A stretch of 64,000 bases of DNA from Phycisphaerales bacterium. Lineage in GTDB: Bacteria > Planctomycetota > Phycisphaerae > Phycisphaerales > UBA1924. Every line of letters starts with the position of its first letter. Position 1 is the stretch's first letter. A program made the translations under genes and the position numbers. The notes beneath the pieces are model-generated. The model had not been told where the DNA came from, made no database searches, and saw only the letters and a program-made list of their open reading frames with translations. Positions 56,380 to 60,414 of this stretch are shown here, in pieces. Where the stretch lies: the NCBI GenBank assembly GCA_020849615.1, contig JADLFW010000033.1, forward strand, positions 1-64,000, read 5' to 3'.

Positions 56380-57426
56380 TCATTTCGCCGGGGCGGATGG
56401 GGCGGCGGATGCGGAGTCGCCGGGCTCGTTCACGAAGCGGCGGAGGGCCTCCCGGTAATGCTCCAGGGCCTTGGCGGTCTGCCCCTGCTGCTCGTAGATG
56501 CGTCCGAGGTAGTAGTGGATGCGCTGGGGCTCGGGGTTCAGGTTCAGGGCTTCGAGCAGGACGGGCTCAGCGTCGGCGAGGCGGCCGCGCCGGTAGAGCG
56601 CGATGCCCTTGATCTGCTTGGCCCGGCGGTTCTCGGGCTGGGCCTCGAGCACGGTGCTGACGAGCTTGTCGGCTTCGTCGAGCTGGGAGGTGGCCAGGCT
56701 GAGGTCGGCCAGGTCGAGCAGAATGTCGGGGCTGGTCGGGTCGAGGTCCCGCGCCTTGACGAGTTCATCGCGGGCGGCGTCGAGCTGGCCCTTCTCGCGC
56801 AGGTAGCGGGCCGCGGCGCGGTGGGTCGAGGCCTGGCTCTTGGGGGAGCCCGAGGCCGAGGCCCGGGCCTTGAGCTGCTCCTCGAGCTGCGCATCGGTGA
56901 GCTTGCCGAGGGTGTGCTGGATGTAGACCTCGAGGATGTGTGCGTAGTCGGGCCCGCGCAGCGAGATGACGTGGGCGAGCTTGCCCTCGGGGCTCATGAC
57001 GATGGTGGTCGGGAGGACGATGAGCCCGAGCTTGGCGTAGAAGCCGCGGTCGGCGTCGAGCGCGAGCGGCACATCGAGCGAGCGCTCCTCGCGGAATCGC
57101 TGAAAGTAGGCTTTCTGCACGACATCGGCGGTGACGTGGACGAGGCGGACGTTGTCGGCCTGGAACTGCCGCACGACATCGCGCGATTCCATCGCCGCCA
57201 GCTCGGAGCTGCGTTGCTCGGCGGACAGGCAGACGATGACGGCGACAGACCCCTTCCAGGTCTCGCTGTCGAGCATGTCGCCGGCGATGCCGGGGAGCTT
57301 GAGGGCGGGGACGGGCTCTCCCTTGCGGACGTTGCGCAGTTCATCCGCCCGCGCGGGCGGCGCGGCGGCGGCGGCGCACAGGAGGCAGGCGGCAAGGACG
57401 GTTCTGAGCGTTCGGGACCAGTTCAT
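56380..57426 (-). CDS. Thioredoxin-fold (TlpA/redoxin-like) protein with TPR domain, no CXXC
   Basis: 348-aa exported protein. Signal peptide about 1-27. Residues about 33-175 form a redoxin fold (GEPVPALKLPGIAGDML, cis-Pro motif VLPTTIVMSPEGKLAHV). At the usual WCxxC site the sequence is VIVCLSAEQRSSE, with one cysteine only, so no dithiol chemistry is expected. The rest (about 200-330) is a run of tetratricopeptide repeats. It is the last gene of the cytochrome cluster, 46 bp after the upstream cytochrome gene, and may act as an assembly or docking factor. Confidence 0.78.
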   Translation of the reverse strand: MNWSRTLRTVLAACLLCAAAAAPPARADELRNVRKGEPVPALKLPGIAGDMLDSETWKGSVAVIVCLSAEQRSSELAAMESRDVVRQFQADNVRLVHVTADVVQKAYFQRFREERSLDVPLALDADRGFYAKLGLIVLPTTIVMSPEGKLAHVISLRGPDYAHILEVYIQHTLGKLTDAQLEEQLKARASASGSPKSQASTHRAAARYLREKGQLDAARDELVKARDLDPTSPDILLDLADLSLATSQLDEADKLVSTVLEAQPENRRAKQIKGIALYRRGRLADAEPVLLEALNLNPEPQRIHYYLGRIYEQQGQTAKALEHYREALRRFVNEPGDSASAAPSAPAK

Positions 57427-57472: not shown

Positions 57473-58948
57473 CTACTTGGCAGGCGGGGGATTGCCGTCG
57501 TTGGGATTCACGCGCACGCCCGGGATGAGGTCCTCGCCCTTCCAGGTGCCGCGGGATCTCTCGGCGGGGTACACGATGGGTGTGACCCGGTTGTACTGGA
57601 GGGGGGCGTGGCAGCCCGCGCCGCACGTGCCGCCGTCCTGGAGCGTCTCGAACCGGATCGGGAGCTTCCACCCGGACGGCCCGTAGGCGACCTCATCGCG
57701 GATGTGGCGGTCGCGGTTGGTGGCGTGGGCGTCGTGGCAGACGCTGCAGGACCGCCCCTTCTTGTCGCGCACGACGTGGATGTAGTGGAGGTTGTTGTCG
57801 CCGTTGCGGAAGCCGGTGGCGGTGTCGGTGCGGGAGAGCATGACCATCTGGCGGTCGTGGCAGCTGAAGCACAGGGCGTAGGCGTTCTCGCTGAAGGGGT
57901 AATAGATGTCCGAGGGGTACTCGTTGGTCAGGAGACGACGATGACCGCCTCCGTGGATGTCGTGGCAGGAGACGCAGCTTCCCTGCGAGATGGCGCCGTG
58001 CAGGCTCTTGCCGTTCTCGATGAGCTTCTTCATGTCCTGAAGCTTGGAGCCGTCCTTGAGCGTAATGGTCTTGTTGTGACACTCGAAGCACAGGGCCTGG
58101 TCCTGCTTCTTGAGGAGCCGGGCGTGGTCACTGGCGTGGCCCGCGTGGCAGTTGAGGCAGGACTGCTGCGTCGTGACGGCGGCGTGCTGCGTGGTCGCCC
58201 CTTCCATGGCCCGGGCGATCGACTCGTGGCAGGCGGTGCAGAGGGCGACGGGGTCGGCGGAGAGCACGGCGGGGTTGTCCGTGCCGTGAGGGTCGTGGCA
58301 GACCAGGCAGTCGCCGAGGGCCGGCCCGTGCACGACGTGCCTGGATTCGATCTCCAGGCCCGTCGAGAGGTGGCACTTGAGGCAGAGGTCGCGTCCTTCG
58401 GCGACGAGGAGGTGGGGCCGCGTGGAAGCGTGGGGTTCATGGCAGGCGCCGCAGGCGCCGGCGGAGACCGGGCCGTGCTGGAAGCGGTGGGCGGTGGAGA
58501 CCTGCTCGTGGCAGGCTTTGCAGGAGTCGCCGTAGCGCTCGCCGCGGAGCATGGTCGGCTCGCTGCTGCCGTGAGGGTCGTGGCAGGAGAGGCAGTCGCC
58601 CTCGGCAAACGGCTTGTGGGCGATCGCGCCGACCTTCGGCTCGATCACGTGGCAGAGCGCGCAGGTGCGGTTGCGGTCGGTGGCGGCCTCGAAGCGGTGG
58701 CGCTCGGGCTCGACCAGCTTGTGGCAGGCATCGCACCCGCTGACCTGCACCGGCCCGTGCACGAACCGGTGCTGCTTGACACCGGGGTGGCACTCGGCTG
58801 TGACGCACCCTTCGCGGGGCGTGATGCCGGTGGGCGGCGCGGCGGTGGAACCGGTCTTGTCGCGGACGGCGGCGGGGGGCTGGGCGGCGGCCCCGGGCAC
58901 GACGGTTGCGGCGATGACCAGCAGCAGCAGCAGCGGCCGGGCGTTCAT
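57473..58948 (-). CDS. Periplasmic cytochrome with 15 haem-binding motifs (paralogue A)
   Basis: 491-aa exported multihaem cytochrome. Signal peptide about 1-22. Fifteen c-type motifs: first a CX4CH (CVTAECH near 48), then thirteen CXXCH (CDACH, CALCH, CLSCH, CKACH and so on), last a CX3CH (CGAGCH near 452). Many are followed by DPHG, EPHA or DIHG, the doubled-CXXCH/cytochrome c3-type pattern that supplies second haem ligands. It shares this exact motif order with the upstream gene, to which it is coupled by ATGA. Likely a periplasmic electron wire. Confidence 0.9.
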   Translation of the reverse strand: MNARPLLLLLVIAATVVPGAAAQPPAAVRDKTGSTAAPPTGITPREGCVTAECHPGVKQHRFVHGPVQVSGCDACHKLVEPERHRFEAATDRNRTCALCHVIEPKVGAIAHKPFAEGDCLSCHDPHGSSEPTMLRGERYGDSCKACHEQVSTAHRFQHGPVSAGACGACHEPHASTRPHLLVAEGRDLCLKCHLSTGLEIESRHVVHGPALGDCLVCHDPHGTDNPAVLSADPVALCTACHESIARAMEGATTQHAAVTTQQSCLNCHAGHASDHARLLKKQDQALCFECHNKTITLKDGSKLQDMKKLIENGKSLHGAISQGSCVSCHDIHGGGHRRLLTNEYPSDIYYPFSENAYALCFSCHDRQMVMLSRTDTATGFRNGDNNLHYIHVVRDKKGRSCSVCHDAHATNRDRHIRDEVAYGPSGWKLPIRFETLQDGGTCGAGCHAPLQYNRVTPIVYPAERSRGTWKGEDLIPGVRVNPNDGNPPPAK

Positions 58949-60414
58949 GGCTCACCATCCTTCCCGCGCGGGGTGTTGACCGCCTGGGCGCGGCTGTACC
59001 GGAGCGCTTCATGACAACCCGGGGCGCAGCCGCCTCCATCGGGGGTCGTGAAGTAGCCGATCGGCATCGACCACGAGGATCCCTCGAACGCGACGGAATC
59101 CGCCATCAGCCGGGGCTGGTCGCCGCCGTGGAACTCGTGGCAGTTGCCGCAGCTGCGGCCGCCCTTGTCGGAGAGCAGGTGCCGGCGGTGGAGATTCACC
59201 GCGCCATCGCGGAAGCGCGTCGCCTCGCCGCGATCGCTCAGCGCCAGTTCGCGGTCATGGCACGTGAAGCAGAGGGCGTAGTTCCGCAGGCTGACCTCGT
59301 CCGCGGCCGCCCCCAGGTTGAGGGTTTTCAGCAGCCGCTCCTGGGTGCCGCCGTGCACGTTGTGGCAGGCGGAACAATGGCCCGCGGCGACCGGCCCGTG
59401 CACCTGCGGTGTGGAAGCGATCGCGGCCATCGCCGGCACCTGCCGCCCGTCCGCGGCCCGGACGGGCTCGGCGTGGCACTTGAGGCACACGGAAGTCTGG
59501 TCGGCTTTCAGCATCGACGGAATGTCCGAACCGTGGGGCTCGTGGCAGGAGCTGCACTGATCCCCCTTCAGCACCGCGTCATGCGAGACCGTCGCGCCGC
59601 CGACCTCGCGGGCGACTTCTTCGTGGCAACTGATGCACACGACGCGGGACTCATCTCGCATCAGGCCCGCCGCCGCGCCGGTATGTGGCGCGTGGCAGGC
59701 GAGGCAGGCGCCGCCCACCCGCGCGTGCGAGTACGGGGCGGTGTTGGTGAGTTCAACGGTCCCCGAATGGCAGAGGCGGCAGTGGTCCGGGCCGCCGCCC
59801 CCGGTCAGAAGGCTGGGCGAATCGGACGCGTGGGGCTCGTGGCAGACGACGCACCGGCCCGTCGCGTACGGATCGTGGTCGTGCGTGCCGCGCTGCGGCG
59901 GGTGGCATGCTTCGCAGGATTCGCGGATCGAAGCGGCTTTGAGCAGGTGCGGGCCGCCCGAGCCGTGGATCTTGTGGCACGCGCCGCAGCCCACATCCGT
60001 CAGGGCCTTGTGATCGACGCGGCCGAGATGGACGTGGTCGTGGCATTCCGTGCACGCGGCATCCCCGCCTCCGCGCATCGGGTAGGTGTGCCCGCCCGCA
60101 TCGGGCCCGTGGCATGAGTTGCAGGTGTCGGCCCCCGCGGCGGGGTGGCGCAGGGCGGGCCGGGCCATCGCCACGTGGCACTCCGCGCTGACGCACCCCT
60201 GCTTGAACTCGATCACGGTCGTCGGTCGGGGTGCGGGTGTGGTCACGTTCACGATGGCCGGGCCCGGCGCGGGCGGCGGCGGCGCCCGGCGCAGCGCGAG
60301 TCGCGCCACCACGCCGCCGACAAGCAGGATGGCGACGAGACTCAGCCCGATCGCCACCCGGCGCCAGGAGCGGGCCGGTGCACGGGTCGGGGTTGGCCTG
60401 GTCGCGTTCACCAT
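58945..60414 (-). CDS. Membrane-anchored cytochrome with 15 haem-binding motifs (paralogue B)
   Basis: 489-aa multihaem cytochrome. A basic N-terminus and one membrane segment (IGLSLVAILLVGGVVARLAL, about 22-41) anchor it or act as an uncleaved signal. A Pro-rich linker leads to fifteen motifs in the same order as paralogue A: CX4CH (CVSAECH), thirteen CXXCH, and a final CX3CH (CAPGCH). The frame continues upstream but that part is out of phase with the neighbouring cytochrome gene and is not coding. The ATG lies 11 bp after the stop of the b/c fusion gene. It probably passes electrons from the membrane enzyme to paralogue A. Confidence 0.88.
   Translation of the reverse strand: MVNATRPTPTRAPARSWRRVAIGLSLVAILLVGGVVARLALRRAPPPPAPGPAIVNVTTPAPRPTTVIEFKQGCVSAECHVAMARPALRHPAAGADTCNSCHGPDAGGHTYPMRGGGDAACTECHDHVHLGRVDHKALTDVGCGACHKIHGSGGPHLLKAASIRESCEACHPPQRGTHDHDPYATGRCVVCHEPHASDSPSLLTGGGGPDHCRLCHSGTVELTNTAPYSHARVGGACLACHAPHTGAAAGLMRDESRVVCISCHEEVAREVGGATVSHDAVLKGDQCSSCHEPHGSDIPSMLKADQTSVCLKCHAEPVRAADGRQVPAMAAIASTPQVHGPVAAGHCSACHNVHGGTQERLLKTLNLGAAADEVSLRNYALCFTCHDRELALSDRGEATRFRDGAVNLHRRHLLSDKGGRSCGNCHEFHGGDQPRLMADSVAFEGSSWSMPIGYFTTPDGGGCAPGCHEALRYSRAQAVNTPRGKDGEP

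Follow-up and report, generated by a model that had tools for sequence, protein, structure and literature searches.

Twin fifteen-haem cytochromes with atypical motifs at both ends, in a putative quinone-linked operon of a Phycisphaerales bacterium

We analyzed the first 64,000 nucleotides of contig JADLFW010000033.1 from a Phycisphaerales bacterium (assembly GCA_020849615.1); we refer to this stretch as the window. Near its end, five genes on the minus strand (Table 1) encode, in order, two CbcL-like proteins (771 and then 758 amino acids), cytochrome B, cytochrome A, and a thioredoxin-fold/TPR protein. The successive gaps across this unit are 0, 11, -4, and 46 nt, so the genes for B and A overlap by 4 nt. 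B starts with the ATG at 60414, and we rejected a longer open frame that reaches 61752. A sequence-only reading of the window had described A and B as sharing one code of 15 haem motifs, and translation bears this out: both proteins read CX4CH, then 13 copies of CXXCH, then CX3CH. Each protein has 30 cysteines, all within these motifs. The flanks of the end motifs are also as similar as that reading had it (CVTAECH and CVSAECH at site 1; CGAGCH and CAPGCH at site 15). A search restricted to CXXCH would overlook both ends and arrive at 13 haems.

Table 1. Features of the five-gene unit (positions in the window).
Feature	Positions	Strand	Basis
Second 11-haem/cytochrome-b fusion, 771 aa	62703-64000, runs to 65018 on contig	-	domains and sequence
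Fusion with a CbcL-like layout (11-haem c domain, then b-type membrane domain), 758 aa	60426-62702	-	domains and sequence
Cytochrome B, membrane-anchored form, 489 aa, 15 haem motifs	58945-60414	-	translation, alignment, model
Transmembrane anchor of B, residues 20-37	60304-60357	-	hydropathy and flanking Arg
Haem site 1 of B, CVSAECH (CX4CH)	60175-60195	-	sequence and family alignment
Haem site 15 of B, CAPGCH (CX3CH)	59011-59028	-	sequence and family listing/alignment
Cytochrome A, soluble form, 491 aa, 15 haem motifs	57473-58948	-	translation, alignment, model
Signal peptide of A: residues 1-22, with AAA preceding Q23	58883-58948	-	read from sequence; cleavage inferred
Haem site 1 of A, CVTAECH (CX4CH)	58787-58807	-	sequence and family alignment
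Haem site 15 of A, CGAGCH (CX3CH)	57608-57625	-	sequence and family listing/alignment
Thioredoxin-fold and TPR protein, 348 aa, without CXXC active site; conserved partner gene	56380-57426	-	domains, family neighbourhoods

A and B are paralogs (36% identity over 425 aligned residues, E = 3e-84), so a shared motif order would by itself follow from common descent. The code goes beyond the ancestry of the twins, because it is also kept by relatives from other phyla that have just one copy. Both proteins belong to Paired_CXXCH_1 (PF09699; 201.1 and 166 bits, versus a curated cut-off of 20.6). The CxxxxCH/CxxCH domain from Geobacter, which we considered for the N-termini, does not match either protein there.

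To describe the family, we collected relatives from the same order and from a scan of 84,980 genomes. No part of the wide alignment (A2) was conserved enough for a genome scan, so a narrower alignment was used. The scan patterns were confined to haems 12-13, so the resulting listing of 72 loci, which was not filtered on the ends, is free of selection for the end motifs. In that listing, the matched protein has a CX3CH end in 68 of 72 loci; of the four exceptions, three are distant hits and one is a record that is truncated at its end. A CX4CH start is present in almost every fifteen-haem protein from these loci. We also aligned 109 fifteen-haem relatives. These rows were chosen for having a CX3CH end, so our claim of C-terminal conservation relies on the unfiltered loci instead. 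The exact code is present in 94 of the 109 proteins, which are mainly from Planctomycetota, with others from Nitrospirota, Myxococcota, Binatota, and Sumerlaeota, and the spacing of the motifs is nearly fixed across the family. Among the deviants, haem 1 is CX3CH in four rows and CXXCH in two (L053 and L054), and seven rows have an extra CX3CH at haem 9.

Besides the twins, the genome of the bacterium encodes two more full members of the family, one each on contigs C9 and C30, for a total of four. The nearest named relatives of the twins were repeatedly from Phycisphaerales, and the family is present in 43 of 298 genomes from a class-wide sample. We found no full-length relative on plasmids. 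A genome-wide DNA pattern for CX4CH performed barely above its reversed control. In the literature that we searched, which lies largely outside subscription papers, we found no description of this family, which does not prove that there is none.

The atypical sites at both ends look like real haem sites and not degenerate ones. Both cysteines and the histidine of each are nearly invariant in the 109 proteins. Furthermore, the conserved columns of the alignment include exactly 30 cysteines and 30 histidines, that is, the 15 proximal histidines and 15 more. Fourteen of these further histidines are conserved at 99% or above, and the weakest is at 93%. Fifteen spare histidines for 15 haems matches what full bis-histidine ligation would need, which supports one distal ligand per haem, both atypical sites included. 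Eight sequences seem to lack one distal histidine. In the Nitrospirota rows, a histidine lies three positions away, so this looks like local misalignment, at least in those rows. There is also a measured precedent: in MmcA from Methanosarcina acetivorans, mass spectrometry found that CXXXCH and CXXXXCH both hold haem (PMC11024163). Like A and B, MmcA has both types of atypical motif in one protein (PMC11024163), but it is an archaeal protein with seven haems and is related to octahaem tetrathionate reductase.

If these sites were empty or vestigial, then each protein would carry 13 haems. The spacing of both sites is atypical, and the structural model is less sure around site 1 (a block mean pLDDT of 71 in A). 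We nevertheless consider this very improbable, given the near-invariant cysteines and histidines, a distal histidine available for each of 15 haems, the two relatives with a plain CXXCH at site 1, and the example of MmcA. The sequence-only reading had argued from the presence of the sites in both copies that they are functional. Two copies make a weak argument, and it is the family that carries the case; the conclusion is supported, with the amendment that the spacing is not strict. That reading also expected that homologs without conserved ends would count against it. In the homologs, the sites stay and only the spacing at haem 1 drifts.

In a maximum-likelihood tree (quick search), all of the proteins of the upstream type, like B, form one clade with a support of 100, and the A-type and single proteins lie outside it. 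In 27 of the 33 rows of B type, another fifteen-haem gene that is not of B type lies within 600 nt downstream. The other six comprise three that run out of sequence, one where a broken frame follows, and two in which the genes are rearranged but adjacent. Because there is a single B clade, the twins derive from one ancient duplication by this sequence comparison, and most remain in tandem. B-type proteins have diverged faster: identity to the nearest orthologs is about 43-50% for B and about 62-64% for A.

The idea that one copy is anchored and the other is soluble is supported as well, as B has a transmembrane helix and A has a signal peptide, and anchoring recurs within the B clade. The anchor is a transmembrane helix in the clade that includes the window's B and a lipobox in other lineages (in 14 of 33 B rows, versus 4 of 76 other rows). 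Some B rows have neither in clear form, so the sequences support membrane anchoring as a recurring, not invariable, property of B-type proteins. The sequence-only reading went on to suggest an anchored relay with a soluble or surface partner. The contrast of anchored and soluble forms holds up, but we see no support for placing A at the surface, and the periplasm is likelier.

AlphaFold models of A and B, which lack the haems, have a mean pLDDT of 88.7 and a pTM of 0.77 each. For both models, the sole significant match among solved structures was MtrA from the Mtr complex (6r2q chain A; Foldseek probability of 1.00, E = 2e-7 and 9e-7); the match spans only part of the chain, with an rmsd of 6.5-7 and a TM score of about 0.56 by target length. 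These predictions suggest an extended MtrA-type fold for A and B. The sequences also resemble the DmsE/MtrA decahaem family (TIGR03508), which is likewise a wire of doubled CXXCH motifs (E = 1.9e-13), but their scores of 129.3 and 124.6 bits are below the curated cut-off of 192.2. A and B have 15 haems instead of 10, which places them outside the ten-haem family, and their operon has no porin gene. Given how densely they carry haem, and that there is more than one copy, the twins might instead be subunits of a polymeric surface nanowire such as OmcS or OmcZ. Because the fold search returned MtrA and no nanowire subunit, for either A or B, and because an uncleaved N-terminal anchor holds B, we rejected the OmcS/OmcE/OmcZ type as highly implausible.

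The most widely kept neighbor of the family is the gene for the thioredoxin-fold/TPR protein. In 36 loci, which include records from Binatota, Myxococcota, and Lentisphaerota, it lies 3' of an A-type or single fifteen-haem gene and in the same orientation. The CXXC motif is missing in all of its relatives (nearer ones have a pattern such as SAEQ..S there), so this protein is probably not a thiol oxidoreductase. In one metagenome record (L078), a single frame of 824 residues joins both domains of this partner to a fifteen-haem protein, through a linker that lacks a second signal; an assembly error could also produce this. Elsewhere, cytochromes that have unusual haem sites are assisted by TPR chaperones such as CcmI and SirG (PMC6976685), so by analogy a role in maturation is plausible. 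A role in docking is equally open. We tentatively suggest that the cytochrome and its CXXC-less partner are a standing pair across several phyla that was not described before, and that the partner is a dedicated chaperone, for haem loading or docking, of long wires with atypical ends; as a whole this is a doubtful guess. Either way, the fifteen-haem family has a conserved non-haem partner that can now be named.

The two genes upstream of B encode fusions with 11 c-type motifs before residue 415 and hydrophobic helices after residue 430. This is the layout of CbcL, MtrH, and MtoC, in which a c-haem domain precedes a b-type membrane domain like that of HydC/FdnI (PMC6295460, PMC9129911). The likeness that we describe is one of layout, and the fusions have 11 c motifs, with one CX3CH, versus 9 in CbcL. 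Within their membrane domains, cytochrome b561 is above the cut-off in one protein, and formate dehydrogenase gamma is below the cut-off in both. Farther upstream, past the end of the window (contig C33, L001:9974-17280), are FdhD-like, formate dehydrogenase-like, and formate-tetrahydrofolate ligase-like genes, as judged by a look at the sequence; they are not syntenic in relatives.

The operon has no barrel gene, so it is unlike the porin-cytochrome conduits Mtr, Ext, PCC3, and Uet, which have a barrel within the cluster. It also has no gene for a surface cytochrome or for a reductase. A candidate for an outer-membrane conduit, by its gene content, is a cluster on contig C9 (L110:2885-10408), where genes for a 4-haem protein, an NHL protein, a 5-haem lipoprotein, a barrel-like protein of 673 amino acids, a second NHL protein, and a 12-haem protein with a CX3CH end lie beside another fifteen-haem gene. 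The barrel was called from a look at the sequence alone; it ends in phenylalanine and matches no Pfam family. Homologous barrels are found near fifteen-haem genes in 13 related loci. Searching this genome with TIGR03509 (MtrB) gave no match, but the control was also silent everywhere, so absence is not established. In gene make-up alone, the cluster resembles ExtEFG of G. sulfurreducens (a barrel, a 5-haem lipoprotein, and a 12-haem periplasmic cytochrome; PMC6148476) and the Uet conduit (NHL proteins; PMC10734462), but the combination differs from both. The genome also has four CcsA-type cytochrome assembly genes (L112-L115; C9:104122-104601, 108312-108932, and 129041-129649, and C13:31638-32372). 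Three of the four lie in the vicinity of the C9 cluster. It is conceivable that these are specialized haem lyases for the atypical sites.

On balance, we favor a model in which A and B are fifteen-haem, bis-histidine wires with an MtrA-type fold, in a five-gene unit that links the quinone pool, via the periplasm, to conduits in the outer membrane whose genes lie elsewhere in the genome. The two CbcL-like proteins would exchange electrons with the quinone pool; B would sit beside them on the cytoplasmic membrane; and A would ferry electrons across the periplasm, to or from the conduits, in a presumed extracellular role. CX4CH would bind haem 1 and CX3CH haem 15, the two ends of each chain. The most economical path would run from the quinone pool through the CbcL-like proteins, B, and then A to a conduit. 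Gene position is the only annotated functional link. Electrons could flow either way, as relatives of CbcL are known from iron-reducing as well as iron-oxidizing organisms (PMC6295460).

Instead of acting in series, A and B could be parallel paralogs with different partners or conditions, each fed by one CbcL-like protein. In the window's own relatives (L038-L046), two CbcL-like genes adjoin two fifteen-haem genes, and the faster divergence of B-type proteins would also fit. We think that this is unlikely, although it deserves consideration, as the tandem order is kept in most loci with B, even in those with one CbcL-like gene (L050-L063). We find it slightly less likely again that the twins store electrons in the periplasm or donate them to a periplasmic reductase, outside of any extracellular route. 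The operon's lack of a barrel or surface cytochrome would be expected, and the member on contig C30 (L111:4693-10122), which has a CX3CH start, adjoins a quinone module instead: its neighbors encode a 4-haem protein, an iron-sulphur protein resembling DsrO, and a DsrP-like protein that scores above the curated cut-off for DsrP. But the operon lacks a reductase gene too, and conduit clusters recur near members of the family.

The twins are a real and well-conserved but uncommon variant of known machinery. Through them, a family of fifteen-haem proteins can be recognized by its fixed motif code, and the two atypical sites at the ends of the chain are predicted to be real haem sites. They also point to extracellular electron exchange in Phycisphaerae, on which at most three full-text papers touch in the literature that we searched.

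Proteins with 9, 11, 13, and 17 haems (in L095, L100, L092, L090, and L097) also have a CX4CH start and a CX3CH end, and from these sequences the two motifs look like caps around a middle of variable length. Ten-haem relatives with a CX3CH end are present in Ramlibacter lithotrophicus, Rubrivivax, Anaeromyxobacter, and a beta proteobacterium (L101, L102, L103, and L106), and three of these loci also contain NHL and 12-haem genes. Finally, two open frames (L107:196-3408 and L108:1721-4921) have 42 CXXCH motifs.
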